Translations under genes and position numbers: made by a program | In this document: positions 5,904-26,198 of the stretch, piece by piece | Numbering within the stretch: position 1 is the first letter of the stretch | How the letters are laid out: every line of letters starts with the position of its first letter | The notes under the pieces: model-generated | The model's database searches: none | What the model saw: only the letters and a program-made list of their open reading frames with translations | What the model was told of the DNA's origin: nothing | IMG/VR virus record: IMGVR_UViG_3300025137_000245 | Span: 1 to 26,198 of that record | DNA: 26,198 bases | Source: a virus | Direction: 5' to 3' (one strand)

Positions 5904-5904
5904 G

Positions 5905-6077: not shown

Positions 6078-6078
6078 A

Positions 6079-6576: not shown

Positions 6577-6679
6577 GTCATCAAATATCTTCTATATATG
6601 TCTATATATATAGACAGGTCGTGTCATCAAATATCCTCAAGGGAGAGTCGTCGTAATCTGTCGCCAGATATCGTAATCT
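6577..6679. repeat. Direct repeats flanking a perfect palindrome, plus two TCGTAATCT copies
   Basis: GTCATCAAATATCTTC (6577-6592) and GTCATCAAATATCCTC (6623-6638) are direct repeats 46 bases apart, with one mismatch in 16. Between them is the perfect 18-base palindrome TGTCTATATATATAGACA (6599-6616). They are followed by TCGTAATCT at 6651-6659 and 6671-6679, the second within an inverted repeat CCAGAT/ATCTGG. This sits between the terminator of paralogue B and the mini-operon starting at 6473, so it is probably the control region of that operon. No clear -35/-10 pair was found. Confidence 0.7.
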
Positions 6680-6684
6680 GGTAC

Positions 6685-6712
6685 AAAAAAAGGGACGCAG
6701 TAAATGCGTCCC
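6685..6712 (-). terminator. Intrinsic terminator of paralogue B
   Basis: On the minus strand the perfect 8-bp stem GGGACGCA/TGCGTCCC (6712-6692) with a 5-base loop is followed at once by seven T (6691-6685). It lies 19 bases after the stop of the gene at 6731-7165 and is a textbook rho-independent terminator. With the promoter at 7219-7247 it makes paralogue B a single-gene transcript. Confidence 0.93.
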
Positions 6713-6730
6713 TCAAAGTTGTTCTGGATA

Positions 6731-7165
6731 TTAAGCTTTAACGACAAGCTTAATAAATGGTTTCATCCAGGTCTTGCTTGACGGTGTATACCCACCATGC
6801 ATGAGGGCGTGAATACAATTAGGTTTAGTTGACGAATGACCTAGTTTTTTCGCTTTAGTAAGGACAGCTCGTAGTGAGCGGTCAACTTTGCCAGCACCGA
6901 CGGGAACACCATGCAATGCCCAGTTTTGGATCGTGGCACGAACGCCCTCGCCTTTGCCACCATAACCAAAAGGAACTGGCTCAGGGTTTTTTAAGTCTAC
7001 ATTGTCTAACGCCTCAATATAAACATTGCCCATGTTACCTCCAGCGTGTTGATTAACAAACGCATGAATCTCAGAGTATGAAAGTTCGCGGTCAGTAACG
7101 ACTAACTCAACAGATTTAGCTTTAGCTTTGGATTTTGGGGCGGATTTTTTATTTGCTTTTAACAT
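6731..7165 (-). CDS. Orphan protein, paralogue B of a two-member family
   Basis: 144 residues. The N-terminal 18 residues are a Lys/Ala/Ser tail (MLKANKKSAPKSKAKAKS); the rest aligns over its whole length with the product of 5234-5647, with a 6-residue insertion before VPFGYGGKGEGVRATIQNW and a rearranged stretch before KKLGHSS. Conserved are the HAFVNQHAGG block, the VPFG..GK..GVR block, one Cys (in TKPNCIHAL) and the C-terminal GGYTPSSKTW...F..LVV. I recognise no known family. The ribosome site AGAAAGGA precedes the ATG. It has a private promoter and a perfect terminator, implying separate, probably strong, expression. A nucleic-acid-binding role is possible given the basic tail. Confidence 0.82.
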   Translation of the reverse strand: MLKANKKSAPKSKAKAKSVELVVTDRELSYSEIHAFVNQHAGGNMGNVYIEALDNVDLKNPEPVPFGYGGKGEGVRATIQNWALHGVPVGAGKVDRSLRAVLTKAKKLGHSSTKPNCIHALMHGGYTPSSKTWMKPFIKLVVKA

Positions 7166-7218
7166 TGTAAAGTCCTTTCTACGACTTAGTGCAGAGCCAT
7201 TGTAGCTGTGCTATAACT

Positions 7219-7247
7219 CTTCTAACATAACTATAGTTTACTGACAA
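7219..7247 (-). promoter_or_regulatory. Sigma70-like promoter of paralogue B
   Basis: Minus-strand TTGTCA (7247-7242) is followed after 17 bases by TAGAAG (7224-7219), a 4-of-6 match to TATAAT. The spacer contains a perfect AACTATAGTT palindrome. An AT-rich track with two AGATAATAAA-like blocks lies upstream. The -35 hexamer is identical to that of paralogue A. The leader to the start codon is about 50 bases. Confidence 0.45.
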
Positions 7248-7350
7248 GTCTTTTATGCTCTTTTATTATCTTTTATTATCCTTCGCCCGAGGCCTCTTTC
7301 ATCATCAAAAATCATCACGAATCGTCTCATCAAGACCGAGGATAGAGGAT

Positions 7351-7419
7351 GATTGACGATGAACGACAGACTGATGACGATTGACGAGGATTGACGATGA
7401 AGGACAGTCGTCGTAATCT
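7351..7419. repeat. Three TCGTCAATC repeats and one TCGTAATCT upstream of paralogue B
   Basis: GATTGACGA (minus strand TCGTCAATC) occurs at 7351-7359, 7379-7387 and 7389-7397. The first and third are parts of a longer near-identical block, minus strand CTGTCNTTCATCGTCAATC. TCGTAATCT follows at 7411-7419, touching the stop of the nuclease gene. The block fills the gap upstream of the paralogue B promoter, and its core TCGTCAA is shared with the repeats upstream of paralogue A. It looks like a set of regulator-binding sites. Confidence 0.7.
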
Positions 7420-7832
7420 CAAGATGATAGAAGATATTTGAGGAGAGCTTCGTAATCGCATTTTATCGGGGAACTCCAATCAGGTATCAAATCTTCTTTA
7501 CTCTCGGTTTCTGCTCCTAGCTCAATCGCCCTAGAACCATGAAATAAATTGACAGTCCCTGACGAAGGCTGCTCAACCAAGTTCCAAACTCGCCCTAATT
7601 CGGTAGCATATCTTATTTGCCAAGCGATCTGGTGGGGTCGTAATTGTATTTTCTTTAACGACTTTAACCTGTGGACTTTCAATTCTATCCAAAAACTCTT
7701 GCCGTCTACAATGCCGTGTAAGTCAGGAACACCAGGACTTGCCCATGATTCTAATCGTGTCCAAAACACGCCCAAGTCCTTAGTTCCGTCACGCAATTTA
7801 TGCCACATTCGTGACTCAGGTTTAATACCCAC
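7419..7832 (-). CDS. PD-(D/E)XK nuclease-like protein (VRR-NUC/Holliday resolvase type)
   Basis: 137 residues. The core shows the pattern of small phage PD-(D/E)XK nucleases: a Glu in RLESWASPG (about 28), G-x-PD in GVPDLHGIVDG (D37), the xELK strand FWIELKV (E49, K51), then LRPHQIAWQ (64-72), the Gln-containing helix typical of VRR-NUC and Hjc-like enzymes. Such proteins cut branched or recombining DNA, and in phages serve resolution before packaging or recombination. The start is GTG at 7832, sharing one base with the upstream stop (TAGTG); there is no strong ribosome site, so coupling is likely. The C-terminal 50 residues match nothing I know. Confidence 0.72.
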   Translation of the reverse strand: MGIKPESRMWHKLRDGTKDLGVFWTRLESWASPGVPDLHGIVDGKSFWIELKVHRLKSLKKIQLRPHQIAWQIRYATELGRVWNLVEQPSSGTVNLFHGSRAIELGAETESKEDLIPDWSSPIKCDYEALLKYLLSS

Positions 7833-8008
7833 TATGAGATAAACTTGTTTGTCGCTACATATTTGGTATACGACTTTAACACATGAGCAATCACTTGATT
7901 GTTGTTGGGTTTAAATCCCCACTCTTTTTCTAAGTTCATAACCACTATATCCATAGCGTCTTTGGTATCAGGCGTTAGCCAAATACCATGTTTCTTTCTA
8001 TCTGCCAT
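7832..8008 (-). CDS. 58-residue protein, possible ribbon-helix-helix regulator
   Basis: The ATG at 8008-8006 follows the stop of the upstream gene by two bases and has AGGAGG 12 bases before it; the stop overlaps the GTG of the nuclease gene. The product begins MADRKKHGIWLTPDTKDAMD and continues with NLEKEWG, FKPNNNQVIAHVLKSYTKYV. A short strand (GIWLTP) followed by two helices, with N-x-x-I-x-x-x-L in the second, resembles the ribbon-helix-helix fold of Arc/MetJ/CopG-like repressors. That would make it a candidate binder of the nearby repeats, but the match is by pattern only. Confidence 0.6.
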   Translation of the reverse strand: MADRKKHGIWLTPDTKDAMDIVVMNLEKEWGFKPNNNQVIAHVLKSYTKYVATNKFIS

Positions 8009-8009
8009 A

Positions 8010-8246
8010 TTAAAATCCAGCCTCCTTTATAAAATTAATACGTTTATCATAATCTTGTTTAGCATTATCATAGCTATTGTATGCTTTGATATTGCCCTGT
8101 GTCCTGTACTTTTTCGGTCCGAGTAACCCATCTTCGCGGTACACAATATATGCCTCGCCTATTGAGGAGATGTCTGCAAAATGCAACACTGTACGAGATT
8201 TACCTTTGTTGAAATAGCGCACGTTAGGGAGCGGTTTATCTACCAT
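8010..8246 (-). CDS. Small hypothetical protein
   Basis: 78 residues with no recognised domain. The sequence suggests a small beta-rich fold (RTVLHFADI, EAYIVYRED) with a C-terminal helix (SYDNAKQDYDKRINFIKEAG). The ribosome site AAAGGA within the shared leader CGTAGAAAGGA precedes the ATG at 8246, and a sigma70-like promoter lies at 8281-8309. Its stop is two bases from the start of the possible RHH gene; 8246-7419 looks like one three-gene operon. Confidence 0.65.
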   Translation of the reverse strand: MVDKPLPNVRYFNKGKSRTVLHFADISSIGEAYIVYREDGLLGPKKYRTQGNIKAYNSYDNAKQDYDKRINFIKEAGF

Positions 8247-8280
8247 TATTAATCCTTTCTACGATTATGTATGTACTTAT

Positions 8281-8309
8281 AGTATAGTTTTAGATAATTA
8301 AATTGACCA
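8281..8309 (-). promoter_or_regulatory. Sigma70-like promoter between terS and the small-gene operon
   Basis: Minus-strand TGGTCA (8309-8304) is followed after exactly 17 bases by TATACT (8286-8281). Upstream is AAATAAAGATT, like the AAATAAAGCTT upstream of the promoter at 20955-20984. Transcription would start about 30 bases before the start codon at 8246. Confidence 0.5.
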
Positions 8310-8313
8310 ATCT

Positions 8314-8865
8314 TTATTTGTCTTGTTTTGTCACATCTACTGCTGTGCTTTCTATTAAAACTGCATCTGTGTTATTTACCTGCAAAGCAGGGAACTCTTT
8401 TTGCAGCCGTTCTATTTCTTTCATAACTTGCTCTTTATCCATTTGATCTATATTACCATGCATGATTTCTTTACGATCTATATATAGTCCTGCGGCTTGG
8501 CCTCTAGATTTTTCAGCGGCAACGGCAGCAGCAAAGTTTCCTGCAGAAATTGATGCGTCTCGTATCTCACCTAGTTTTTTAACGTGGCTTTCAAAACTTA
8601 CCTCAAACTTTTTAGAGAGCTCTTGCTTTAACTCACGGATTCTTTGTACGACGTGGGGGTATCGTTGCCCATTGAGTAATTGCGAAGCGATAGCGTGGGC
8701 GGATTTTACAGAATATCCTGCTCTTACTGCGGCTTCTGTCTGGCTAATGTCTTCACAAACATAAATTCTACAAAACTCTTCTTGTTTTGGTGTGATTCCT
8801 TTTTCTGAACGAGGATTTGCGACGACTTCAATTGTTGGTTTGTGAGTTGCTTTTGCGAGAGCCAT
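8314..8865 (-). CDS. terS: Terminase small subunit (Terminase_2-like)
   Basis: 183 residues. The N-terminal half carries the small-terminase signature: ITPKQEEFCRIYV (24-36), then SQTEAAVRAGYSVKSAHAIA (41-60), a helix-turn-helix-like DNA-recognition segment, then QLLNGQRYPHVVQRIREL. The middle is helical (oligomerisation core), and the end (ERLQKEFPALQ) is an amphipathic helix that may contact the large subunit. TerS binds the packaging start site and loads TerL. A weak AGAAAG stands before the ATG at 8865. It is the first gene after the control region 8866-9288 and is separated from terL by 3.3 kb of small genes. Confidence 0.85.
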   Translation of the reverse strand: MALAKATHKPTIEVVANPRSEKGITPKQEEFCRIYVCEDISQTEAAVRAGYSVKSAHAIASQLLNGQRYPHVVQRIRELKQELSKKFEVSFESHVKKLGEIRDASISAGNFAAAVAAEKSRGQAAGLYIDRKEIMHGNIDQMDKEQVMKEIERLQKEFPALQVNNTDAVLIESTAVDVTKQDK

Positions 8866-9201
8866 TAAATATCTTTCTGCATTTATCGTAATCTGGTGAT
8901 ACTTTGTATAATAGGGTAGAATTCGCTAAAGTGTAAATTCTTTTTTATCGTTTTAAATGTCGCGCGTACTGAGAAAGTGAGTCAGAGATAGTCCTTTTTG
9001 TATTAACTCTACCTCGTAACCTATTGTAGATAGGTGGATACTGAGATATCTGATATTATGAAATCATAAAAACGAATTTCATTGATCCTGAACATCTACT
9101 CCTATTATACAAAGTGAAAGGTTTTAGAGCCTCTGATAAAGGTCAAAGTTTAAATTGTGCTGTGTTATGTGGTATATATTGTGACCCCTCGGAGAGTGGT
9201 T
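8866..9201. promoter_or_regulatory. Control region upstream of terS, duplicated at the right end of the window
   Basis: This gene-free stretch (the gap runs to 9288) separates the replication module from the packaging module. It holds TCGTAATCT (8886-8894), ACTTTGTATAATAGGG on the plus strand (8901-8916), GAGATATCTGATAT (9043-9056), AAAAACGAATTTCA (9068-9081) and an inverted copy of the first motif, minus strand ACTTTGTATAATAGG (9115-9101). The same elements occur in the same order at 25969-26120. The TATAATAGGG ending, just where G-start transcription would begin, resembles phage-polymerase promoters. It may be a promoter, an origin, or the packaging start site that often lies near terS. Confidence 0.6.
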
Positions 9202-9249
9202 AAAAAAACGCCCTGCTATAATCATTTGGGAATACAATTATGGCAGGGC
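9202..9249 (-). terminator. Intrinsic terminator ending the replication module
   Basis: On the minus strand GCCCTGCCATAAT (9249-9237) pairs with ATTATAGCAGGGC (9222-9210): a 13-bp stem with one G-T pair and a 14-base loop, followed one base later by seven T (9208-9202). It lies 40 bases beyond the stop of the last gene of the upstream block (9289) and is an unambiguous rho-independent terminator. Confidence 0.93.
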
Positions 9250-9288
9250 AGTAATGAGTTAACCAAGGACAGGCGATTATTTTATATA

Positions 9289-9537
9289 TCACCTATTTAA
9301 ATATAGCAGATTTTTGACGGATTGCCACAAGTTTCCTAAGAAATAATCTTTTTCTTTTATTGGAATCTTCTTTATTTGGGCTTCGGGTCGTGTAGACAAA
9401 ATATACTCTATTTGTAATCTTGTCAGGCCATACTGCTTAACCAACTCATTAAGGGCTTTTTTATGAGTATTGTTCTGCACTAAAGAATCATAATGAACAG
9501 CAAACTTTTTACAGAAATCACTTGTATAACGCATCAT
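9289..9537 (-). CDS. Small hypothetical protein, last gene of the replication module
   Basis: 82 residues with no recognised family. It is basic and helical; residues 28-50 (ALNELVKQYGLTRLQIEYIL) could be a helix-turn-helix, so a small DNA-binding protein is possible. Two ATG codons in tandem open the frame, overlapping the upstream gene by 20 bases with only a weak ribosome site. The gene is followed by the terminator at 9202-9249. Confidence 0.6.
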   Translation of the reverse strand: MMRYTSDFCKKFAVHYDSLVQNNTHKKALNELVKQYGLTRLQIEYILSTRPEAQIKKIPIKEKDYFLGNLWQSVKNLLYLNR

Positions 9538-9790
9538 TTTCAGTATTCACTTTTTTAACTCTTTTGGCTAATTCATCATTAGCAGTTTGTTTCTGGGTCA
9601 ACATCACAATCAGCTTATTATATGCTTCATCATTTCTAAAACAAATAGTGCTACATAAAAAAGATAATGCCCCAATCTCATGATCGGGGCTCCAAAGGTC
9701 GCCTACACGACCAGTGATTGTACTTTCTTCTTCACACAGCTTTAAATATCTAGCCACGTTGTTTCTAACCATACTATACGTTCTAGGCAT
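9518..9790 (-). CDS. Hypothetical protein, 90 residues
   Basis: I place the start at the ATG 9790-9788 (MPRTYSMVRNNVARYL), which has AGGAAGG five bases upstream and overlaps the preceding stop by 8 bases; a GTG at 9808 is possible but lacks a ribosome site. The N-terminal helix pattern (SMVRNNVARYLKLCEE) is followed by a segment with two Cys and a C-terminal coiled-coil-like tail (QTANDELAKRVKKVNTEN). No family is recognised. Confidence 0.55.
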   Translation of the reverse strand: MPRTYSMVRNNVARYLKLCEEESTITGRVGDLWSPDHEIGALSFLCSTICFRNDEAYNKLIVMLTQKQTANDELAKRVKKVNTENDALYK

Positions 9791-10301
9791 CAACACCTTC
9801 CTCACCAATTTTTACTTTTAAACGCACATCATGCCCACAGTAATCTTCTTCACTAAGGCAAGCTATCGCAATACCATCTTTTACATATTGGCCTGGATAA
9901 TCTTCACTAACAAACTCTTTGAACCTATCGGACGAAGGATCTCTCATCTCATATACTTTACCTTTATAAAAATCACGCAACCACTCTTCTTCAGTTTTGT
10001 TAGACCAATTAGTATGTAGACCAATATGGCGGTAAACATCAATCAATCTTATATAACGAGGGTCACCTTGTTTTGTGTATAAAAAAGCTCCATATTGGTT
10101 TTCATAAAAAGCAATACGATTGTGATACTGTTTATAATTTTTAGCAGTAATCTTGCCGAAACCTACAGCATTTCCAGCGAAAATTAAAGTATTGGTCAAT
10201 GGGGTAAGATACTTACCCATCTTACCTTTTTTATTAGTGCGCTCTTCTACACAATATATGTCGCAGTTATGGACTGCACTGTAATCATAATTTAATGGCA
10301 T
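9783..10301 (-). CDS. Hypothetical protein, 172 residues
   Basis: No known family. It is a mixed alpha/beta protein with many aromatic residues (NYDYSAVHNCDIYCVEERTN, RYIRLIDVYRHIGLHTNWS, EEEWLRDFYKGKVYEMRD). Three Cys lie near the ends (NCDIYC, IACLSEEDYCGHD), which could bind metal, but they are not in a standard zinc-finger spacing. The ribosome site AGAAAGGG precedes the ATG at 10301, and a sigma70-like promoter stands at 10334-10362, so this gene likely heads a three-gene unit 10301-9289. Confidence 0.65.
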   Translation of the reverse strand: MPLNYDYSAVHNCDIYCVEERTNKKGKMGKYLTPLTNTLIFAGNAVGFGKITAKNYKQYHNRIAFYENQYGAFLYTKQGDPRYIRLIDVYRHIGLHTNWSNKTEEEWLRDFYKGKVYEMRDPSSDRFKEFVSEDYPGQYVKDGIAIACLSEEDYCGHDVRLKVKIGEEGVDA

Positions 10302-10333
10302 TTTTATCCCTTTCTGTGGATTTAATATACTTT

Positions 10334-10362
10334 ATTTTAACTTAAAGTATTAGTATTGATAA
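10334..10362 (-). promoter_or_regulatory. Sigma70-like promoter before the 172-residue protein gene
   Basis: Minus-strand TTATCA (10362-10357), exactly 17 bases, then TAAAAT (10339-10334). The upstream context GGCTTATCAATA matches the promoters at 20955-20984 and 11501-11529. An inverted repeat ATACTTTA/TAAAGTAT (10327-10334 with 10343-10350) overlaps the -10 and could be an operator or leader hairpin. Confidence 0.6.
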
Positions 10363-10383
10363 GCCTTTTTTTATCTTATTTGT

Positions 10384-10605
10384 TCAGGGTAATTTTTCTA
10401 ACTCTGATGTGAGAGCGACTAATACATCTTCTGATTTTTTAAGATCGTGCCACTGTTTATCTACTTTATACATTATCGGCATAAAAGTATGTGGGTCACT
10501 TACTACTTTTTCAAGCATTTTTTCAACTAATGCTTTAACTTCATCTAAACATTCATGATAACCTTGGTCTTTTAACTCTGAATGATATTCTTCATCTATA
10601 GACAT
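10384..10605 (-). CDS. Small acidic helical hypothetical protein
   Basis: 73 residues, acidic and nearly all helical (EEYHSELKDQGYHECLDEVK, ALVEKMLEKVV, DVLVALTSELEKLP), with a possible short coiled coil. No family is recognised. The ribosome site AAGGAG lies inside the 3' end of the upstream zinc-ribbon gene, nine bases before the ATG at 10605, with a four-base gap between genes. Confidence 0.62.
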   Translation of the reverse strand: MSIDEEYHSELKDQGYHECLDEVKALVEKMLEKVVSDPHTFMPIMYKVDKQWHDLKKSEDVLVALTSELEKLP

Positions 10606-11536: not shown

Positions 11537-11770
11537 TTAATCTTTTTTATTCCCCTCACTCCAGTGTCCTTGGATTCTACTCCCACAATCAGAGCAACCG
11601 ATTCCATGGCGTTCTTCAGAGAGTAGATGAAAATAAGCAGACCCACATAAGGAACAAAGCACAATATCAACTTCTTCCTCTATTATAGTAACTGGGACAA
11701 CTGGGTCTGGTCTTTTGAACTGGATAATGTTGGTATTATCATAAATGGGGGAGTTTTTCTTTTTTTCCAT
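11537..11770 (-). CDS. Zinc-ribbon protein, 77 residues
   Basis: After a 35-residue N-terminal segment (IIQFKRPDPVVPVTIIEEEV) come two CxxC pairs, CSLC (about 39-42) and CSDC (about 59-62), with 16 residues between: a zinc ribbon. The N-terminus overlaps the 3' end of the upstream gene by 88 bases in another frame, a long overlap even here. The ribosome site is weak (AAAAGATTAG). It may bind nucleic acid or RNA polymerase; no family is recognised. Confidence 0.62.
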   Translation of the reverse strand: MEKKKNSPIYDNTNIIQFKRPDPVVPVTIIEEEVDIVLCSLCGSAYFHLLSEERHGIGCSDCGSRIQGHWSEGNKKD

Positions 11771-12195
11771 ACTGCTAATCTTTTCTTTTCACCATTATAA
11801 TATTGGTGATATGCTTTTATAACATCTGCATTTTTATATTCGTCGGGCATTGCCTGAGCAAATTTAGTTAATCCTGTATTAGTTAATTCTACAGGGGGAT
11901 CTTTTACAATGGCAAGTATTTTCTCACAAGCATGAACTCTATTATACCTGAAGGTATACTCTTTACATAAACTTATGCCTAACTTCCACAACCATCTGTA
12001 ATTGTTTACAGTTTCGCCTGCCCATAGAGTACAAGGGTGTTTTTGATGCACAGGTTTATAAGGAGCTTCTTGGTTGTATCGCCAATTAACAGTACATAAC
12101 ATCTGTGTTGTTTCTAAAGGCATTTTGACAACGTGTTTGTCGCAATGGTAACGAGCACAAGTTTCATGGTCGTAGTCTAATAAAAATATATTCAC
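11683..12195 (-). CDS. Conserved phage protein (sometimes annotated as pyrimidine-dimer glycosylase-like)
   Basis: 170 residues. The start MNIFLLDYDHETCARYHCDK followed by HVVKMPLETTQML, then HPCTLWAGETVNNYRWLWKLG, EYTFRYNRVHACEKI and LTKFAQAMPDEYK, is a well-conserved phage family I recall being labelled hypothetical or pyrimidine dimer DNA glycosylase. I do not see an obvious match to T4 endonuclease V, so the repair role is doubtful. Many His and Cys residues suggest metal binding or a catalytic centre. The family consensus seems to end near AVWKKRKTPP; here the frame runs 20 residues further into the zinc-ribbon gene, so the tail may be a local extension. Confidence 0.68.
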   Translation of the reverse strand: MNIFLLDYDHETCARYHCDKHVVKMPLETTQMLCTVNWRYNQEAPYKPVHQKHPCTLWAGETVNNYRWLWKLGISLCKEYTFRYNRVHACEKILAIVKDPPVELTNTGLTKFAQAMPDEYKNADVIKAYHQYYNGEKKRLAVWKKRKTPPFMIIPTLSSSKDQTQLSQLL

Positions 12196-12534: not shown

Positions 12535-13089
12535 TTACTCCGAAGGGTTCAGATCATTATCTAACAGTTCAATAAGTACGTTTTTAGCTATATCATAATG
12601 GGGTCGACCTCTATATTTATGGTCTAAATAATCTCTACCATTAACAATAATATCTCCTGCAAGATAATTTCCTCGCAAATACATTCTTTGACAATGAAAA
12701 ACTAATTCTAATTTATCTGCTATATCACAACAATCTTTTTCTTTATCGGTCACAGGGAAATTAACACCTAATTCGCAGTTGTATTTAAATTCTATTTTAG
12801 CAACCTCAACTGCCAAACGATCGTAATCCCATTTAGTTGTCGCAGGTATATCTCCTGTTCTGCTTTCTGCAATATCATGATACATTAAATGTAAAAGAGC
12901 ATTTTTTGAAAGATCAGGCCATAAAGTCTGTAAAATAACCATTGCTCTCCAAGTATGGGCTGCGACATTTTGCCCATCGCTACAATCTGGGCGTGTATGG
13001 TATCTTAATATATGACCGCCTTTTAATCTTTCTAATACATCTTCTAAGTTAGCATCTCGCTGTGGTTTCCCGTTAGTCCTCGTGTCCAT
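12535..13089 (-). CDS. HD-domain phosphohydrolase (YfbR/5'-deoxynucleotidase-like)
   Basis: 184 residues from the ATG at 13089, which has GGAG five bases upstream; an in-frame start at 13125 lacks one. The HD metal-binding set is complete: H45 in NVAAHTWRAM, H71-D72 and E75 in MYHDIAES, and D125 in DIADKLELVF. The size and the R-Y-H-x-R...NVAAH pattern fit YfbR-type 5'-deoxynucleotidases and the related phage dNTP hydrolases such as DatZ. These remove phosphate(s) from deoxynucleotides and shape the dNTP pool. The gene overlaps the end of the polymerase gene by 46 bases, an intimate arrangement suggesting joint function. Substrate cannot be read from sequence; clearing dTMP/dTTP would fit the nearby thymidine-modification genes. 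Confidence 0.8.
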   Translation of the reverse strand: MDTRTNGKPQRDANLEDVLERLKGGHILRYHTRPDCSDGQNVAAHTWRAMVILQTLWPDLSKNALLHLMYHDIAESRTGDIPATTKWDYDRLAVEVAKIEFKYNCELGVNFPVTDKEKDCCDIADKLELVFHCQRMYLRGNYLAGDIIVNGRDYLDHKYRGRPHYDIAKNVLIELLDNDLNPSE

Positions 13090-14960
13090 GGTTTCTCCGT
13101 AAATGTTTGTTTTGCTTCCCCCCAATTTGGTCCAAATTCTGCATCAACTATTGAAGGGACTTCTAGTTTAACACAGTTCTCCATTATTTCTGTAACTATT
13201 TTTGCTTGTTTTTCATTTTCTACAGAAATATCTAATTCATCGTGAACTTGAATCATAGGTAATATGCCTTCTTCATTTAAAGCTACCATCGCGGCTTTAG
13301 TTTGGTCAGCAGCACTCCCCTGGATTAATTTATTAAGAGCTTTGTAAGTAAATGCTCGTTTTATCGCAGGTCCGTGTTCGTTAAAAGCTTCTTGATAATT
13401 TAAAGGTTTCCAAATGCCATATCTGTTTGGTTCCCATTTGTCGAATCTGCACCTGCGTCCTAAAACTGTGCGGATTACTCCTTTTTGGCTAGCTCTGTTG
13501 CTAGAATATTCACTGAGTTCACGCACAAAAGGGACTTTTTCGTGGTATGTTGCAAATAATTCTTTTGCATCTTCAAATTCTAAACCAAGGCTTGCCGCTA
13601 ATTTTTTAGACCCCATGCCATAAAATAAACCAAGGTTGATATCTTTAGCTTGCTTGCGTGGGACACCAACAATATCTGCCGCCATTTGGTGGAAATCAGT
13701 GCGAGGGTCTTCATTATATTGTTCGGCAAACTCTATTGCCCCTCTGAAGTTCATCAACTTAGCATAATGTACAACAATGCGTGGTTCTTGGCTAGAGTAG
13801 TCAAATGCACCCCACAATGTATCTTGTTCTGGTAAAAACAAACTGCGTATCATAGGTCCGATTTCACCATGCCTTGCAGGTATTTGTTGCAGATTTGGGT
13901 TACTGTAGCTAAATCTTCCTGTTACTGTGCCGCCTTGGTCGTTACGCAGTGGGTGAAGCTCTGCGTGAATACGACCTTTAATTTGATGTTTTAAAATAGT
14001 ATCAACAAAAGTGCTACGAGCTTTGTTAAACTCTCTTGCTTGCACAATTTTTTGAGCTATCTCGTGGGGGTGGTTACTTAAAAAACCTTTCGTAAAACTA
14101 GGAGCTCCAGTTTTTTCTGTTTTTGCGTAATCTAAACCTAACTTATCAAAAACTTTTGCTACAGATTCAGCCGCCCACATTTCTACAGCGATTCCTGTTT
14201 GTTTAGCTACATCATCTAAAAGTTTTTTCTCTCGTTGCTTTAAATCTATTTTTATTAGCTCTGTTTTATCTACATCAACTCTTACTCCACGTTCTCGCAT
14301 AGGAATAATAGTTTTGAGAACTTTTAACTCTAAATCTAAAACATCACCAATCTCTTCTTTAATTATTAATCCTTTAAAAAACTCCCATAAACGTAAAGTC
14401 AAAGAAGCATCTTGCTCTGCATAAGCTCCTACATACGCGGCAGGTAGTTTATACATTTCACTTTTAGCGTTTACTCCAAATGCTTCAGCTGCTTCTCGTA
14501 ATTCTACTTCAGACTTACGTTCTTGTAAGTAATCTCTGCCAATAGCGTTGAGGGCGTAACTGAATCTATTTTCGTCGAGCAGCGGTGCAACGACCATCGT
14601 ATCCACGATTCGCCCTTTGATAAACACATCTTCGGCGAGCAACCACCCAACATCATACTGAGCATTATGGAAAACGTAATCACGATTAATTTTGCATACA
14701 TCTCTTAACCAACTTAATGTGACTTTAGGATCAAAATTAGGACCATTTTCATGTCTAATAGGAAAGTACCATTGATTTCCTGTTACTGCAACTGCCACAC
14801 CAATTATGTGTCCATCTTTCCTTGCCCAACCCGAACCCATTGTAGTTAAATTAGGGTCTTTAGTTTCTAAATCTATAGCTATTTCTTCGTAAGAGCTTAA
14901 ATCTGGGTAGCCATCTGGCATAACCCATTCAGTAGGTGGCTTAAATAGAGGTAACTGCAT
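13044..14960 (-). CDS. polA: DNA polymerase I family (family A) with 3'-5' exonuclease
   Basis: 638 residues: proofreading exonuclease plus polymerase, no 5' nuclease, as usual for phage replicases. Exonuclease motifs are AIDLETK (D30, E32), FHNAQYD (D103) and YAEQD (Y180, D184). Polymerase motif A is DYSSQEPR (D387); the O-helix is RKQAKDINLGLFYGMG (R435, K439, Y447); motif C is VHDE (H573, D574, E575). The residue equivalent to E. coli Phe762 is Leu443. Leu at this site is known to affect fidelity and rate and has been linked in viral ecology studies to slower or temperate life styles. There is no DnaJ-like or other insertion. The start ATG at 14960 has only a weak ribosome site and overlaps the upstream zinc-binding gene by 20 bases. 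Confidence 0.96.
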   Translation of the reverse strand: MQLPLFKPPTEWVMPDGYPDLSSYEEIAIDLETKDPNLTTMGSGWARKDGHIIGVAVAVTGNQWYFPIRHENGPNFDPKVTLSWLRDVCKINRDYVFHNAQYDVGWLLAEDVFIKGRIVDTMVVAPLLDENRFSYALNAIGRDYLQERKSEVELREAAEAFGVNAKSEMYKLPAAYVGAYAEQDASLTLRLWEFFKGLIIKEEIGDVLDLELKVLKTIIPMRERGVRVDVDKTELIKIDLKQREKKLLDDVAKQTGIAVEMWAAESVAKVFDKLGLDYAKTEKTGAPSFTKGFLSNHPHEIAQKIVQAREFNKARSTFVDTILKHQIKGRIHAELHPLRNDQGGTVTGRFSYSNPNLQQIPARHGEIGPMIRSLFLPEQDTLWGAFDYSSQEPRIVVHYAKLMNFRGAIEFAEQYNEDPRTDFHQMAADIVGVPRKQAKDINLGLFYGMGSKKLAASLGLEFEDAKELFATYHEKVPFVRELSEYSSNRASQKGVIRTVLGRRCRFDKWEPNRYGIWKPLNYQEAFNEHGPAIKRAFTYKALNKLIQGSAADQTKAAMVALNEEGILPMIQVHDELDISVENEKQAKIVTEIMENCVKLEVPSIVDAEFGPNWGEAKQTFTEKPWTRGLTGNHSEMLT

Positions 14961-15841: not shown

Positions 15842-16486
15842 TTATTTTTTCCAATAGACTCCGTCTTGTATCACCCAATAACTATTGCAATCTTCTTGCT
15901 TAGTTAAAACATAACCTCTGTTTTTTAAAATATCGTACTTTTTATTTTTAGAAACTTCTTGTTCTTCCCAATACGATTGTGTGGTTTTACCTCTAACTGC
16001 CACATGGTCTTCTGTAATTATTTCAACAGGCATAACACTCCAATCATAACTTTCAAAAATAGTTGTATCATTCCCTTCTGTATCTACTTTTAATATATCA
16101 ACATGGTTTATATTATTTTCTGTTAAAAGAGTATGTAGCGTTTTTGTGGGAACTTCTTGGTATTCATCTGTTAAATGTTGGGCAACAAACTCCTCACCAT
16201 TAACTAAAGAGGAACGCATACACTTTTCTTTCTGAGCAGGCGACCTCCTATCAAAAAACCCATACTTCCCCATAAACAGTTTGCCTACACCATCTGTTGA
16301 ACTAACTGCACAATGAACGTATTTAAAATCAGTGCCTTTTAAACTTTTAAATATATCCTCTTTCATATAAGCATTAGGCTCTACCATTAAACCAAACCAT
16401 GTTTCTTTTTTACGATGCAAAAGTTTGTTAGCTAAAGATAAAGTACGAGCATTAAAACAACCGATATCAACTATTGTTTTTGTCAT
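15842..16486 (-). CDS. FkbM-family SAM-dependent methyltransferase
   Basis: 214 residues from the ATG 16486-16484, which has a perfect AGGAGG before it and overlaps the stop of the TS-like gene as ATGA; the frame continues to 16516 but those starts lie within the ribosome site. The SAM-binding fold shows VDIGCFNART (motif I), LMVEPNAYM (acidic end of strand 2), YVHCAVSS, and the FkbM signature VDILKVDTEGND. FkbM enzymes usually O-methylate sugars or hydroxyls, for example on glycans and lipids. Coupled directly to a TS/dUMP hydroxymethylase-like gene and close to a glycosyltransferase, it may methylate a sugar on modified phage DNA. Methylation of a host or virion glycan is the alternative. 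Confidence 0.85.
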   Translation of the reverse strand: MTKTIVDIGCFNARTLSLANKLLHRKKETWFGLMVEPNAYMKEDIFKSLKGTDFKYVHCAVSSTDGVGKLFMGKYGFFDRRSPAQKEKCMRSSLVNGEEFVAQHLTDEYQEVPTKTLHTLLTENNINHVDILKVDTEGNDTTIFESYDWSVMPVEIITEDHVAVRGKTTQSYWEEQEVSKNKKYDILKNRGYVLTKQEDCNSYWVIQDGVYWKK

Positions 16487-17463
16487 TTTAACCTCCTCTC
16501 TAACCATTCTACACAAGCCCTACGCCAAGCCCTGTCTTCTATAGTGTAGCATTCATCTATAGCTTTTAAAGGCCACTTGTTTTTCCAAAAACTCCATGCC
16601 CTGCGCACAGGGTCACAGGTTGTTTCTAAATATTTGTTTTCATAGTGTTGATACAAAGTACCTTGTGTAAACCATTTTTTTAACTCTGTATCAAATGTAT
16701 CAGGGTTATTTATTAAATAGGGTGAAGTATAAGAAAGCCCTTGGTCAGATAAAGTTAAGTAGGGTTCGTAATCTGGTTGCATATCATCTAATTTGTATAA
16801 CACATCTGTGTATGCATGAAGATTATTACTAAACTGATAATAATCACCTACTTTTAATTTCAGTTTACCTGCCATGTACTCAAGCAAAAAAGACATATGT
16901 ACAGCATTTGCTCCATAAGCACCCCATATCATATCATTACTACGATTAACTACAGTCATGTGTAATTTTTCATCTCTTTTCCAAAAAAAGATTTGTGTAT
17001 TGCAAGGGTAGTCTTTTCCGCCATTATCTGTCCGTAAATCTTCCCACGGATCCCACATACCCACTACAGTTCTTCTATCGTTTTCGTATAAAGATAATCT
17101 TTCTAGGGCAGTTACCAACTGGTCGTCGCCAAACCATTCACGCCATCTAAAGCCATACGCACCATGGAATACATCGCCATCATCACTATATTCTTCAATG
17201 CGGTGGTTGAATTGGCTAATCCATTCTACATCATTACGCCCTGCTAACATCCAAAGGCTTTCCATTAAATGAAAAAAGGGGTTAGCATCTCTTTCAGGGT
17301 AGAACATCACACGTTGCCTACTGTTTCTGTACTTTGTAATAACAGGACCAGTAAACTCTAAAGCATCTCCGTTTCTGGTTTGAACTAACCGCCCTTCCTC
17401 TTTTATGGCTTGCTTAACTACCCATAAAGCTTCGCTGACGTTTTTTACGTTAAATGTTTGCAT
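16483..17463 (-). CDS. Thymidylate synthase family (possible dUMP hydroxymethylase)
   Basis: 326 residues. ThyA-family core: AYGFRWREWF (102-111), RRTVVGMWDPW (130-140), catalytic Cys154 in YPCNTQIFF, phosphate-binding RS in NRSND (R174, S175), Asn186 in WGAYGANAVH aligned with the Asn that selects dUMP over dCMP, and LHAY (H216, Y218). Compared with cellular TS (RSCD...GLPFN) the motif is RSND...GAYGAN, one residue longer, a version I associate with phage dNMP hydroxymethylase-like proteins. The C-terminus lacks the DPHP and terminal residues of E. coli TS. So it makes either dTMP or 5-hydroxymethyl-dUMP; the genes around it favour the latter. Ribosome site GAGGGG. The 86-base leader has two small hairpins. 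Confidence 0.82.
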   Translation of the reverse strand: MQTFNVKNVSEALWVVKQAIKEEGRLVQTRNGDALEFTGPVITKYRNSRQRVMFYPERDANPFFHLMESLWMLAGRNDVEWISQFNHRIEEYSDDGDVFHGAYGFRWREWFGDDQLVTALERLSLYENDRRTVVGMWDPWEDLRTDNGGKDYPCNTQIFFWKRDEKLHMTVVNRSNDMIWGAYGANAVHMSFLLEYMAGKLKLKVGDYYQFSNNLHAYTDVLYKLDDMQPDYEPYLTLSDQGLSYTSPYLINNPDTFDTELKKWFTQGTLYQHYENKYLETTCDPVRRAWSFWKNKWPLKAIDECYTIEDRAWRRACVEWLERRLK

Positions 17464-17549
17464 ATAAAGCCCCTCTGACTGCTCATTTTAATATTTGGGT
17501 AGTAACACCCATTAATGTAACTCAGGGCAACACTGCCCCTTAAACACTT

Positions 17550-18569
17550 TTAAACACGCTCAAATAAAAATTCAAAGTATTTTTGGCCTATTATGTATTC
17601 GCTGTGTTGTTCTAAGCTTTTAAATCCATTGAGACGCATGATTTCTATTATATCATAAGGCTGAACAGTTTTCAACACTTCTGCTAAATTTTCAGGACTA
17701 TTTACAGTAAGACAATTATATCCTGGAATCATATCATCAGGTTTATCCAATAGCCAACTCTCGTGTATGATAGGAATACAACCTGCGTTCCATGCTTCTA
17801 ACCAAGTGTACTGAGTACCACCACCATCACCAACTATATGGGTCATATCTACGTTAAATGTGTAACCCTTCATTAATTCTACTGCGTAATTTTTCTCTCT
17901 GGGGTAATGTGCTTTAGATTGCTCCCACTCAGGGTACTTTGGCACTATCTTAAACCTAGTATATATTCTGTTCTCAAAACCACGAATGTTTATTTTGCTA
18001 CCTTCGGGTAATAACCTGTTAGCATCTAATAAAATATCTGTGCGTTTATCAAAATCTATACGAGAAGTGCTTATCGCCTTGTTACCTGTGGTGTTTGTAC
18101 GTTCCATGTTAAAACGAGACTCACCTGTGTGTTCCATAAAACTGTAGGGGTGTCGTATAAAAGTAGGCTCTTTACCTGTTGCTTTTTTAAGAACTTCTAT
18201 GCCTATTTTTCTAATCACTACGCACCTGCTCGAATCTAACGGATTCGGAAGGTTTTTTAGCTCTGTCGGATCATGTACAACTATACTAGCATCACCCTCT
18301 TTATACAGTTTGAGCGTTTGTTCTTTAAACTGTTTAGCACCTGCTACGATTAACTTTTCATACTTGCGTGATAAAGCAACTTCCATAGATATGTTTCGGT
18401 ACAGTTTATCATAACCAAACTTACGAGTGAACTTTTCAGTTTTGGGTCTTATCTTAAATAGGTTGCATTTAACACCTACAGCTTCTAATGCTTCTATTAA
18501 GTGACAAGTATAAGTAACCCAACCACCATACGGATTAGGACTTAAATAAAATAAATCTACTTGTTTCAT
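17550..18569 (-). CDS. Glycosyltransferase (GT-B, GT4-like)
   Basis: 339 residues. The N-terminus (YLSPNPYGGWVTYTCHLIEA) has the glycine-rich start of a GT-B fold that binds an acceptor. The C-terminal half has STSRIDFDKRTDILLDA and then VGDGGGTQYTWLEAWNAGCI followed by PIIHES, the donor-binding E-x7-like region of GT4-type enzymes (LEAxxxGxxPI). It would transfer a sugar from a nucleotide-sugar. The start ATG overlaps the stop of the upstream hypermodification-type gene as ATGA with GAGGGGGG before it. Phage glycosyltransferases commonly decorate hydroxymethylated bases; that is my favoured role here given both neighbours, with virion or host-surface glycosylation as the alternative. Confidence 0.82.
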   Translation of the reverse strand: MKQVDLFYLSPNPYGGWVTYTCHLIEALEAVGVKCNLFKIRPKTEKFTRKFGYDKLYRNISMEVALSRKYEKLIVAGAKQFKEQTLKLYKEGDASIVVHDPTELKNLPNPLDSSRCVVIRKIGIEVLKKATGKEPTFIRHPYSFMEHTGESRFNMERTNTTGNKAISTSRIDFDKRTDILLDANRLLPEGSKINIRGFENRIYTRFKIVPKYPEWEQSKAHYPREKNYAVELMKGYTFNVDMTHIVGDGGGTQYTWLEAWNAGCIPIIHESWLLDKPDDMIPGYNCLTVNSPENLAEVLKTVQPYDIIEIMRLNGFKSLEQHSEYIIGQKYFEFLFERV

Positions 18570-19516
18570 GCGACACCCCCCTCAGGTAAATCTACTTGTA
18601 ATAAAGTGTTTCCATCGTATTTGCTTCTAGGCTTACCTTGCCCATGCAATACTCTTTCGTATTTATCCCACTCACATAAGCTATGCTCAATAGTTCGCAT
18701 ATCAACTTCAGCTAAAGGAACATGGGATAAAATAAACTCTTTAGCATCTTCTAAAAGAAGTTGCATTTCATGGTTAGCTTGTATTTGACTCATGCCTTTT
18801 TTTAATTCACGTTGGTGGATTCTGTTTAAACCCCTAATCGCTCCTGGACCTGCATTAGCCCATTCAAATCTATCTTCAGCATATCTTAATACAGGTGTGT
18901 AGTTCAAATCAGTAACCACTTCATAAGACATAAAGCCACCGCCACCCCAACCTCGGTACTGTTTAAAAAACTCATGGGTTTCTTGTAAAGATCTAGTACT
19001 CTTTGCAACTTCTGCTATTTTGTCTGAATCTTTATATATAGGTTTTAAGAAGTGGTCTATCACAACTTCAGCTTTGGGTAGTTTCAACCCTTGGTTTGTG
19101 ATAATATAAGCTCCTGTAAAGGTTCTTTTCTTTTGAGAAATCATATCAGAAATTAATTGTTTGCTGTGCAAAGGATTCCAAGTAGAATCAAATTCTACCC
19201 AACCATGTTCCTCAGCAAACTCTACTGTGCCAATCATTCTAAACAAACAACAATTAAAAACAATTTCTGCCCATGATTTATTATCATTAGGTTTTGTCCA
19301 GTTGTTTCTCATCCAAACTGTTACACGATCATTTTCTCTAAATGGGTTTGTGAATTTAAAGTTTTGCAAAATGGGGTCAGTTGTCCAAGGTGCTTGTTCT
19401 TTTTTAATTCTGCGTTGATAAATGGCATGGCGTTCGTTTATCCAATAAAAATACCTACCTTTTTCTGTAGATAAATGTTTATTGCGTAGTAATCTTGTTA
19501 TTACTGTGTCTTGCAT
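18566..19516 (-). CDS. DNA base hypermodification protein (HMUDK-helical/aGPT-PPlase, AADT-like)
   Basis: 316 residues from the ATG 19516-19514 with AAAGGGAG upstream; the frame extends to 19552 without a ribosome site. Conserved blocks: YFYWINERHAIYQRR (22-36), PWTTDPILQNFKFTN (43-57) with PFRENDR, GGFMSYEVVTDL (193-204), WANAGPGAIRGLNRI (219-233) and IEHSLCEWDKYERV (276-289). These match what I know of the family named after the helical domain of 5-hmdU DNA kinase and the alpha-glutamyl/putrescinyl-thymine pyrophosphorylases. They have a DNA-glycosylase-like fold, and relatives in phages such as M6 were shown to be amino acid:DNA transferases acting on phosphorylated 5-hmdU. No P-loop is present, so it is not the kinase itself. 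Confidence 0.72.
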   Translation of the reverse strand: MQDTVITRLLRNKHLSTEKGRYFYWINERHAIYQRRIKKEQAPWTTDPILQNFKFTNPFRENDRVTVWMRNNWTKPNDNKSWAEIVFNCCLFRMIGTVEFAEEHGWVEFDSTWNPLHSKQLISDMISQKKRTFTGAYIITNQGLKLPKAEVVIDHFLKPIYKDSDKIAEVAKSTRSLQETHEFFKQYRGWGGGGFMSYEVVTDLNYTPVLRYAEDRFEWANAGPGAIRGLNRIHQRELKKGMSQIQANHEMQLLLEDAKEFILSHVPLAEVDMRTIEHSLCEWDKYERVLHGQGKPRSKYDGNTLLQVDLPEGGVA

Positions 19517-19595: not shown

Positions 19596-20624
19596 TTAAG
19601 AAACTGAAGCATATTCCAATACTTTTGTCAATGCTTTTCGTTTAGTGTTTGCACCGCTACCTAACCAAGCAGAGTGCAGAGCATTACCTTCAGCTAAAGA
19701 TTTTTTCTTATGATCTATAACATAAGTAACACCATTCAAAGCCCCCCACCAAGTTCCCTTGGCAGAATCCATATTTGATCCTGGTGAGTTTTCTACTGCT
19801 TCATGTACAAGTTCGGCAGTATGGCTGAACTCTTCATGCAAGTGTGGTAGAATGTCTGGGTTAGAAGCTTTTGCTCTTTCAATAAGCAGTTTAGGTTGAA
19901 ACAACTCTGCAATAAAGTTATCTACATCGAACTTCTCAGCTTTCTTATTAGCTAAGAACTCAGATTGTTCTTGGAACTTTTTCATTTGCACAGTACTCAA
20001 CCCTAAAGCTTCCTCTGCTGCTTTTTGGATTTCTTCATCAAACATTTGTAAGTGCAATACTCTAAAGCGGTCTTGATTACGTTCTAAAGCTAACGTCAAA
20101 GTATTGTTACAAACAACTCTAATAGGCGTAAGCATAGCGGTCATAGCTTTGCCTACCTGATGGCTATTGTTTAAAAGCAAATAGCCACCTACTTCATCGT
20201 TTCCAGGAAGGGAAAACTTACTGGTCAATTTGGCTAAACCCCAAATGTCCTTACCTTCCTTTAAACTACCTGCTGTTTCCATTTCCATTTTACCTGCTTC
20301 AGTAAACCTTTTAAAAAAGTCCATAACTTCAGCATTTTGAAAAGGCACATAACTTTCACCACAAGGGGATAATACTTTGTTATCACTATCCCTAACTAAA
20401 AAGTGGTTATCAGGGCATCTTAAAAACCCTGCTTCACCTGTGGGGTCGATAATGTTCCAACAATCTGGTTTATCTGTAGTAAAAGCAGGTCGTTTGCTTA
20501 CTGTCCAGTCTAACTGAGCAGCTTTTAACATTTGCTCAGGTGTCATACCATTGTCGACTTTTTTACCTAAACCATGCCAAGGAACCTCTCCTGCGTAGGC
20601 CATTGTTTCTACTTCATGTGACAT
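19596..20624 (-). CDS. DUF932 (phage/plasmid-like protein) family
   Basis: 342 residues. The N-terminus AGEVPWHGLGKKVDNGMTPE and blocks such as FLVRDSDNKVLSPCGESYVP, FQNAEVMDFF, VVCNNTLTLAL and GTWWGALNGVTYVIDH are characteristic of DUF932, common in phages, plasmids and mobile elements. The biochemical function is not established to my knowledge; it is often found near recombination or replication genes, as here. Length fits the family. Strong AGAAAGGAG before the ATG at 20624. It follows the 91-residue gene by 20 bases, so both probably use the promoter at 20955-20984. Confidence 0.9.
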   Translation of the reverse strand: MSHEVETMAYAGEVPWHGLGKKVDNGMTPEQMLKAAQLDWTVSKRPAFTTDKPDCWNIIDPTGEAGFLRCPDNHFLVRDSDNKVLSPCGESYVPFQNAEVMDFFKRFTEAGKMEMETAGSLKEGKDIWGLAKLTSKFSLPGNDEVGGYLLLNNSHQVGKAMTAMLTPIRVVCNNTLTLALERNQDRFRVLHLQMFDEEIQKAAEEALGLSTVQMKKFQEQSEFLANKKAEKFDVDNFIAELFQPKLLIERAKASNPDILPHLHEEFSHTAELVHEAVENSPGSNMDSAKGTWWGALNGVTYVIDHKKKSLAEGNALHSAWLGSGANTKRKALTKVLEYASVS

Positions 20625-21005: not shown

Positions 21006-22523
21006 TCAATAGGGCAAAGCATAACCCTGACTAAACATCGGGTGTATCAAATGTAGCTTTTGTTTTGCTCTTGTAAGGCCAACATAAAAAACCCTTGCTT
21101 CATCATCTTCATAACCCTTTATTTTTCTCCACATAGAATAAGGTCTACGCATTGTATCTGTTAAAAGCATTACATTGTTAGCTTGAGCTCCTTTTGCAGA
21201 ATGTATGGTTGAAATCCTTAAACGTGGTACAGTTGTCAGGCTTTCGCCTTTACGCAAGCAAGCTCTAATATAAACCCTATCTCTGCTACTTATTTTGCCT
21301 AATCCTTTATCCCAAGGCAGACTGTGTAATAAACCATGATTTTGCTGTAGCTCTTCTATAGAATAAAACACCCCTTCTTGACCATCAGGCATTGTTTTAA
21401 ATCCGTAAGCTATTTGCGAGTTTAATAACATTTGTTTGTACACTAACCGCACTTGATCTACATTTAATTTATTGCCTTCGCGTAAAGATTCCCATAACCT
21501 AACTGATTCTATTACCTTACTATCTATACTGGTTGAGCCATTGTATATATACAGGTGTCCCCTACGCCTAACTTCTTCTTCAATTTGTTGAGCTCCACGA
21601 GTAGTTCGGCTAAGTAACAACCAATCTCCATCAGCAAGGTTTACCTCTTCAGAATGGCGATGCCAAAATATATCACCATTTTCATCTCTTGGTTTAAAAG
21701 TTTTTTCTCTTCTGCCAACTATCTTTTGTATAACTTTACTGCTCAATGTATGGTGTGAAGTAGGAATACGATAACTTTGGTTTAATAAAGTTACTTCGCC
21801 TTCTAAACCAATAAAATGCTCTACATCTGCTCCTGCGTAACGAAAAATAGCTTGGTCATCATCACCTGCAACATAACAAACCTTACTGTTCTTTTCTAAC
21901 ATTCGCACCATTTCCCATTGTAAAGGGGATAGATCTTGGGCTTCATCAATAAAAACAATCTCTAATTTAGGGCAAAGCTCTTGCTCTACAAATAACTCCA
22001 ACATACCTGCGTAATCTTGCAACCCATAAGATCTTTTCCAATGTGCTAACCCTCTGTCCACATAATCTACCCTCGCCCAATCTGTTTTTAGAGGAACAAT
22101 ACTTTCATTATAAATTTTCCTCAAAGGTTTTCTTAATATTCTTGCAATGTTTATGATTTCTAAAAATTTATCGCCATAACCAAAATCTTTATATGGACCT
22201 TGCTCTACCTGTGAGCCGCTGTAAAACCTACCGATCTTTAACCAATCTGCCGCTTCTTGGTATTTTTCAGGTGTCATAACCTGTGAGTGAGTCAGCCCTG
22301 CTCTTAAAAAAGCAAGACTGTGTAATGTTCTAAAGTATGGCAGTTCTTTTTTAGAAAGGTTAAATTGTGTGCAAGCTCTGTCTATTGCTTCCTCTGCGGC
22401 TCTTCTTGTAAAAGCAAAATAGCCTATTCTATCTGGTGGAACGCCTGATGTAAGGTACTGTTCAACAAGGTTAATTAATCTTGTTGTTTTGCCTGTTCCA
22501 GGAGGACCGAGTACTACTTTCAT
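21006..22523 (-). CDS. UvrD/Rep-like SF1 DNA helicase
   Basis: 505 residues; a 3'-5' DNA helicase. The motifs are in order: GPPGTGKT (6-13, Walker A), FAFTRRAAEEA (motif Ia region), YFRTLHSLA, FIDEAQDLSPLQ (Walker B, D193/E194), VAGDDDQAIFRYAGAD (motif III), LNQSYRIP (motif IV), ISTIHSAKGAQANNVML (motif V) and VFYVGLTRAKQKL (motif VI). It is shorter than cellular UvrD (about 720), with reduced accessory domains, as is common in phages. The ATG shares one base with the primase stop (TAATG), so primase and helicase are made together and probably act at the same fork or origin. Confidence 0.93.
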   Translation of the reverse strand: MKVVLGPPGTGKTTRLINLVEQYLTSGVPPDRIGYFAFTRRAAEEAIDRACTQFNLSKKELPYFRTLHSLAFLRAGLTHSQVMTPEKYQEAADWLKIGRFYSGSQVEQGPYKDFGYGDKFLEIINIARILRKPLRKIYNESIVPLKTDWARVDYVDRGLAHWKRSYGLQDYAGMLELFVEQELCPKLEIVFIDEAQDLSPLQWEMVRMLEKNSKVCYVAGDDDQAIFRYAGADVEHFIGLEGEVTLLNQSYRIPTSHHTLSSKVIQKIVGRREKTFKPRDENGDIFWHRHSEEVNLADGDWLLLSRTTRGAQQIEEEVRRRGHLYIYNGSTSIDSKVIESVRLWESLREGNKLNVDQVRLVYKQMLLNSQIAYGFKTMPDGQEGVFYSIEELQQNHGLLHSLPWDKGLGKISSRDRVYIRACLRKGESLTTVPRLRISTIHSAKGAQANNVMLLTDTMRRPYSMWRKIKGYEDDEARVFYVGLTRAKQKLHLIHPMFSQGYALPY

Positions 22524-25886: not shown

Positions 25887-25968
25887 GTCTCTCTCCACAT
25901 GGTGTTAAGTATTTAGTTGTAGCATGGGAAACAAAAATTATAAAGCAAAAAATAATCTAAAAACTTCG

Positions 25969-26120
25969 ACTTTATATAATAGGGCAAATATCGCGTGTAG
26001 TAAAAACTCTTTTTAACGTACAGATTTTTTCGCGTAGACCCGAGATATCTGATATCGTATATTCTAAGATCGTAAAAACGAATTTCACTGTTCGTTAAAA
26101 TTCCCCCTATATAGCAAAGT
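25969..26120. promoter_or_regulatory. Right-hand control region, duplicate of the one upstream of terS
   Basis: This gene-free region upstream of the replication module holds ACTTTATATAATAGGG on the plus strand (25969-25984), GAGATATCTGATAT (26042-26055), AAAAACGAATTTCA (26074-26087) and, on the minus strand, ACTTTGCTATATAGGGG (26120-26104). The order and approximate distances match 8901-9116. The minus-strand copy is placed to start transcripts running into the gene at 25886. It is a candidate promoter or replication origin. The rest of 25899-26198 holds no gene. Confidence 0.58.
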
Positions 26121-26127
26121 TATCTTA

Positions 26128-26198
26128 CAACAGGAATACATAACACAGCTATAGGTTAGACAACAGGAATACATAACACAGCTATAGGTTAGACAACA
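26128..26198. repeat. 33-bp tandem repeat at the window edge
   Basis: The unit beginning CAACAGGAATACATAACACA and ending GCTATAGGTTAGA occurs perfectly twice (26128-26160 and 26161-26193), and the first five bases of a third copy reach the edge (26194-26198). The copies have no mismatch. Next to a control region this suggests iterons of an origin or a promoter/operator array; it may also be where an assembly stopped because of the repeat. Confidence 0.95.

Follow-up and report, generated by a model that had tools for sequence, protein, structure and literature searches.

Known systems and the window locus

In phages of the M6/YuA type (Mesyanzhinovviridae), a hydroxymethylase-type thymidylate synthase (TS) homologue, an HMUDK_hel protein, an HD nucleotidase and a family A DNA polymerase (PolA) lie in one neighbourhood, and in YuA a 5-hydroxymethyldeoxyuridine (5-hmdU) DNA kinase (PF18748), ADDT (PF18724), PALP, radical SAM and Nmad5 genes are placed between and around this core. 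Here we describe a matching neighbourhood in a 26,198-base virus fragment from IMG/VR (record IMGVR_UViG_3300025137_000245, the whole of which is called the window), which like its relatives is a metagenomic contig, and whose genome is that of a marine-type phage. The window lineage has the hydroxymethylase-type TS of the kinase-dependent M6/ViI group; unlike that group it carries a glycosyltransferase (GT) and an FkbM methyltransferase, and neither the PF18748 kinase nor the PF18724 transferase was found in it. We consider it likely that these genes form a 5-hmdU glycosylation cassette, in which direct glycosylation would replace the kinase and phosphate chemistry of the M6 type and the FkbM protein would O-methylate the added sugar. 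An earlier prediction made from the window's letters (the original prediction) had proposed a thymidine hypermodification that sets out from 5-hmdU and involves a GT and an FkbM enzyme, and our comparisons support this as a reading of the sequence.

A related gene set was reported in 2022 for HTVC023P-type pelagiphages, namely a TS and aG/PT-PPlase1, with a 5'-deoxynucleotidase and a 'beta-glucosyl-HMC-alpha-glucosyltransferase' (PMC9599517). Their lineage is related to that of the window by PolA, the cassette concept is the same, and their annotated GT fits the TAGT variant described below. The window differs in having another GT at that position and an FkbM gene; the missing kinase, the slot swapping and the methyl step are not mentioned in the available part of that report. 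The original suggestion that the modification had not been described is therefore too strong for the combination of hydroxymethylase, aGPT-PPlase1 and GT.

Base J of kinetoplastids and trypanosomes (JBP1/2 and JGT) likewise carries its sugar directly on 5-hydroxymethyluracil in DNA. Its 5-hydroxymethyluracil arises by oxidation of T in DNA, whereas synthesis at the nucleotide level is predicted here, and base J has no methyl cap; Pfam scans of window proteins matched no Tet_JBP dioxygenase, the other genomes not being searched for one. The T-even phages glucosylate 5-hydroxymethyldeoxycytidine by the same succession of hydroxymethylase (T4 gp42), replication and then glycosyltransferase (alpha/beta-GT, TAGT), and TAGT is an alternative gene of the present cassette, but the window has HMUDK_hel and a uracil-type hydroxymethylase, with Asn and not the T4 residue. 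Bacillus phage SP-15, with its glucosylated and phosphoglucuronylated dihydroxypentyluracil, also places a sugar on a thymine-derived base (PMC5977210); it differs in the base itself, in its Thy1-type synthases and in a teichuronic-acid-like cluster of ten genes.

The four-gene cluster

As originally predicted, the window has four adjacent open reading frames (ORFs) here, which the minus strand encodes: the HMUDK_hel protein (PF18723, 'aGPT-PPlase clade 1'; 316 aa, 18566..19516), a GT4-like GT-B glycosyltransferase (17550..18569), a dUMP hydroxymethylase-type TS homologue (16483..17463) and an FkbM-family methyltransferase of subfamily A (15842..16486). Both proposed ATGA overlaps are in the sequence, at 18566-18569 and 16483-16486, with a purine-rich ribosome site ahead of each, which together place the FkbM start at 16486 and not at 16516. 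The HMUDK_hel ORF has a possible alternative upstream start, GTG at 19552. Pfam profiles recognised the HMUDK_hel protein (E 5.7e-54), the TS homologue (PF00303, E 2.3e-19) and the FkbM protein (PF05050, E 1.2e-10), and the names GT4-like, TS/dUMP hydroxymethylase and FkbM were upheld. Such clustering goes far beyond chance, for about 100 related loci repeat the gene order. These loci were collected from IMG/VR by scans with the GT, HMUDK_hel and FkbM proteins, pattern-based scans which favour similar sequences.

The hydroxymethylase

Besides PF00303 (Thymidylat_synt), the TS homologue matches phrog_5131 (E 1.1e-102), and its score lies far under each of the equivalog cut-offs that NCBIfam sets for thymidylate synthases. 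Annotated records supplied the reference enzymes for a tree, among them SPO1 gp29, annotated as a dUMP hydroxymethylase; in this tree the window protein clusters with SPO1 gp29, YuA gp17 and a Kuttervirus homologue (support 97/99), in a clade that excludes E. coli ThyA and T4-type td. The position of E. coli L143 is Asp in every hydroxymethylase aligned, T4 gp42 included, and Leu in ThyA, T4-type td and T5-type TS; the window protein has also lost Trp80, and its catalytic residues are intact. The uracil-recognising Asn (E. coli N177, N186 in the window) is invariant across 30 family members, and the CMP hydroxymethylase MilA has Asp where the window protein has Asn186, a residue on which identity as a dCMP hydroxymethylase was rejected. 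Together these results support the prediction that the protein converts dUMP to 5-hmdUMP.

The HMUDK_hel protein and the search for a kinase

Residues 33-305 of the HMUDK_hel protein align to positions 6-278 of the 281 in PF18723. The protein is 35-37% identical to YuA gp14 and its Sonora counterpart with the motifs kept, WANAGPGA-RGLNR and IEHSLCE-DKY being common to the window and YuA. The label 'AADT-like' originally given to it is incorrect, since it has no PF18724 match. No ADDT was found above the cut-off in the relatives; of their weak PF18724 matches, the one in G004 is, judged from its position, the HMUDK_hel gene, and the rest resemble it in frame length, and an AADT/ADDT identity was rejected, these matches reflecting distant similarity between clade 1 and clade 2. 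The AF2 structure model has a pLDDT of 89, and a fold search gave no significant PDB match; a 3-methyladenine DNA glycosylase at rank 4 (probability 0.33) is a lead only.

No 5-hmdU kinase was matched by PF18748 among the window proteins scanned, in agreement with the original prediction, nor in any of the 25 related records searched, of which 20 have lengths of 50-69 kb, YuA being positive in the same search. Querying with the YuA kinase protein likewise gave no match. PF18748 was not found in G017 (60.3 kb), which has the window-type GT and FkbM and whose FkbM gene is divided between the two ends of the contig, the pattern that a complete circular assembly would give. In G003, also with GT and FkbM, the strict Walker A ORFs were a helicase and two non-kinase-like frames only. 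This negative draws on a single Pfam model, on a single protein query and on Walker A scanning in three genomes. The suggestion that the kinase merely lies elsewhere in the genome is probably incorrect, since it was not found in relatives of 50-69 kb, and the route probably differs from that of SPO1, ViI and M6, as the original prediction had allowed; we prefer direct glycosylation.

As the HMUDK_hel protein keeps the motifs shared with YuA, it is under selection without its kinase. Our guess is that it serves as a helper in the modification complex, or as a component of it for recognition or presentation of 5-hmdU in DNA.

A family of about 205 aa, here called C0 (L024:9233-9979 and relatives), was seen at the position of the YuA kinase gene, and was not seen in the window lineage or in L005. 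Its representative gave no Pfam and no significant PHROG match, and the C0 sequences inspected had no Walker A motif.

The glycosyltransferase and its slot

The window GT gave no match in Pfam (GT1/GT4 profiles and TAGT PF20691), PHROG or NCBIfam. Its AlphaFold model (pLDDT 73) has a GT-B fold by Foldseek (probability 1.00, best E 6.8e-10), with the GT4 enzymes HepE and then PimA as nearest structures, so that the original GT4 assignment holds for the fold and not for the sequence profiles. Neither the annotated phage collection nor bacterial and archaeal genomes yielded relatives of this GT; those that were recovered all adjoin HMUDK_hel or a radical-SAM gene and lie upstream of the hydroxymethylase or FkbM, except where contigs end there.

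Across the loci the order kept is primase, UvrD helicase, DUF932, optional C0, HMUDK_hel, slot gene, hydroxymethylase, PolA and HD nucleotidase, and the slot between HMUDK_hel and the hydroxymethylase is filled by one of four types. Apart from the window-type GT these are C3, a second GT4-like family with a weak PF00534 match, to which the window GT aligns with hhalign (probability 95%, E 2.3e-8); C1, of the TAGT family (PF20691, E 2.1e-15; phrog_842 'beta-glucosyl-HMC-alpha-glucosyltransferase', E 1.9e-44), accompanied by the radical-SAM/SPASM protein C2; and C6 (about 335 aa; L082:10916-11932, L084, L083, L155), to which no family and no other slot profile matched. Family and slot-profile comparisons did not bear out C6 as a glycosyltransferase; it is possibly an unrecognised transferase. 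A clean swap is seen in L054 and L058, which share 95.9% identity over the 10.9 kb that end at the HMUDK_hel stop, differ past it (window-type GT versus C3) and resume homology just before the hydroxymethylase. The genome of L063 has no slot gene and carries its C3 GT elsewhere. In T6-type phages the second DNA glucosyltransferase is likely to be a member of the TAGT family (PMC13390438). Because the window-type GT is interchanged with this family, it probably acts on a hydroxymethylated base, and we predict from its sequence context that it glycosylates 5-hmdU.

The closest named phages by PolA, 023Pt_psg01, HTVC023P and DSL-LC04 (50-55% identity), show no PF18723, and their PolA follows closely on the helicase, which indicates that the block behaves as an insertable cassette; in 023Pt_psg01, which is without it, two small genes (189 bp and 240 bp) lie between helicase and PolA.

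The C2 gene occurs in TAGT-type loci (e.g. L033:11911-12963), and a radical-SAM gene stands beside the window-type GT in place of TAGT in L112 (8913-9998) and L113 (9000-9998); between L113 and L115 it has been cleanly gained or lost. This pairing with either GT, together with the clean gain or loss, suggests a second tailoring step in other lineages. In L120 (MW202897.1, Manatee Spring), a TAGT gene, a 'pyrimidine hmase' (43.6% to the window TS) and an HD domain are adjacent at 8195-10493; this 40-kb record has no PF18723, so that hydroxymethylase and GT occur there without HMUDK_hel. In L135 (Maribacter phage Colly_1), one operon at 3831-8590 encodes a UDP-glucose dehydrogenase, a nucleotide-sugar epimerase, a 'beta glucosyl transferase' and a TS homologue that has both the uracil-type Asn and the signature of the hydroxymethylases. 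This operon is a candidate for another glycosyl-5-hmdU system.

The FkbM methyltransferase

The FkbM protein scores 42.2 bits against a cut-off of 22.7 for PF05050, and 43.2 against 37.7 for TIGR01444. Its subfamily, A, is present at 11 loci, all of them in the cassette and beside a window-type GT or C6 where neighbours are visible. A second, non-orthologous subfamily occurs in L110, L114/L115 and L068, and a single FkbM family was accordingly rejected. Loci L081 and L083 are 94-96% identical, and their 641-bp difference is the FkbM gene, a clean gain or loss. With HMUDK_hel clustered at 90%, an FkbM gene of either subfamily accompanies 6/8 clusters with the window-type GT and 2/25 of the others (Fisher p 6e-4, a guide only, because the clusters are related and were treated as independent). 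This distribution fits a cap specific to certain sugars, and the protein is predicted from its family and context to be a sugar O-methyltransferase.

Proposed pathway and alternative explanations

From the gene families, the hydroxymethylase signature, the slot swapping, the optional FkbM gene and the search for a kinase, we infer a pathway with its chemical steps, their order, its sugar and the role of HMUDK_hel. The TS homologue would convert dUMP to 5-hmdUMP, the HD nucleotidase would probably tilt the nucleotide pool, and PolA would build 5-hmdU into the DNA as a partial or full replacement for thymidine. The GT4-like enzyme would then transfer a sugar from a nucleotide sugar to the 5-hydroxymethyl group, without a DNA-kinase step or a phosphate intermediate, and HMUDK_hel, without its usual kinase, may act as the module that recognises or presents 5-hmdU in DNA. 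FkbM would O-methylate the added sugar, as an optional cap that goes with certain types of sugar transferase, and the product, a methyl-glycosyl-5-hmdU, could block restriction and base-excision attack.

Several observations weigh against this pathway. HMUDK_hel is retained although its usual kinase was not found, and some chance is left that a kinase too divergent for PF18748 is present. At sequence level the window-type GT matches no DNA glycosyltransferase, and the enzymes closest to it in fold have small molecules, lipids or polysaccharide as substrates. Some lineages with the window-type GT are without FkbM, the acceptor of FkbM is not readable from sequence, and the relatedness of the clusters tempers its statistical association; slot type C6, moreover, has no family assignment.

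The nearest folds of the GT also bear on another explanation, in which the hydroxymethylase and HMUDK_hel modify DNA while the GT and FkbM are unrelated host-surface (LPS/glycan) genes, for instance for superinfection exclusion. Surface glycans are common substrates of GT4 and FkbM enzymes, and phage glycosyltransferases have often been interpreted as LPS-modifying (cited in PMC9599517). We nevertheless hold this to be unlikely, as the relatives of the GT that were recovered are confined to the cassette position, the slot is shared with TAGT-family enzymes, subfamily A of FkbM was seen only in the cassette where neighbours are visible, and TAGT, hydroxymethylase and HD genes are found together in the Manatee Spring phage. 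The HMUDK_hel protein raises a further possibility, since it is the named partner domain of the 5-hmdU DNA kinase and adjoins the kinase gene in YuA and Sonora: an unrecognised kinase might phosphorylate 5-hmdU in an M6/ViI-like route, with the GT or another enzyme using the phosphorylated base. C0, of no known family, occupies the kinase position in many relatives and could be put forward for this role, but the window lineage and L005 are without it, and neither its profile searches nor inspection for Walker A motifs gave it a kinase character; as PF18748 was absent from all 25 records (20 of at least 50 kb) and G003 offered no kinase-like Walker A frame, such a route seems quite improbable. 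That the TS homologue is an ordinary thymidylate synthase which raises dTMP supply, with no hypermodification at all, agrees with its PF00303 match and intact catalytic residues. Its place among dUMP hydroxymethylases and not with ThyA or td, the Asp at E. coli L143, the lost Trp80, the scores far under the TS equivalog cut-offs and the company of HMUDK_hel throughout the lineage make this very hard to believe.

Beyond the direct glycosylation proposed for the window, we are only half persuaded of a broader claim: that the loci represent a kinase-free branch of thymidine hypermodification, a counterpart of base J in which interchangeable GTs act on 5-hmdU, the sugar being FkbM-methylated in the window lineage, and in which HMUDK_hel is a general adaptor for 5-hmdU DNA and not a kinase accessory. 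Three features, a kinase-free architecture, swapping at the slot and the FkbM step, appear to be new; no report of them was found in the literature searched, whose coverage of key hypermodification work is incomplete, so that prior mention is possible. Nor did this literature report a base-J-like, sugar-decorated and methylated thymine from a phage. If the claim is true, the sugar chemistry of thymine would be a plug-in, with a constant 5-hmdU core of hydroxymethylase and HMUDK_hel joined by lineage-specific transferases and caps, in parallel to what T-even phages do on cytosine. It would also mean base-J-like DNA in pelagiphage-type marine phages, and would provide a set of candidate 5-hmdU glycosyltransferases and an HMUDK_hel independent of its kinase.

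Neighbouring genes and other observations

The remaining cassette genes of the window are likewise on the minus strand. An HD-domain YfbR-like 5'-deoxynucleotidase (12535..13125; PF13023, PF12917) is the probable nucleotide-pool partner, equivalent to YuA gp18, and YuA and the Manatee Spring phage show the same pairing. PolA (13044..14960; PF00476, E 1.1e-64) forms the downstream boundary. Upstream, a DUF932 protein (19596..20624; PF06067, E 8.7e-45) is a constant member (80/84 loci), and a UvrD-like helicase (21006..22523; PF00580), which is near PolA in HTVC023P, 023Pt_psg01 and DSL-LC04, forms the boundary.

A scan with a defence-system library gave no matches. Downstream of the cassette, a pyrimidine dimer DNA glycosylase-like protein is encoded at 11683-12195 (PF03013, E 1.1e-5), and is present at 61/84 loci. 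At 25890-26198, the upstream end in the minus-strand sense, non-coding sequence ahead of the replication operon carries a repeat whose unit is about 30 bases long (TGTTGTCTAACCTATAGCTGTGTTATGTATTCC).

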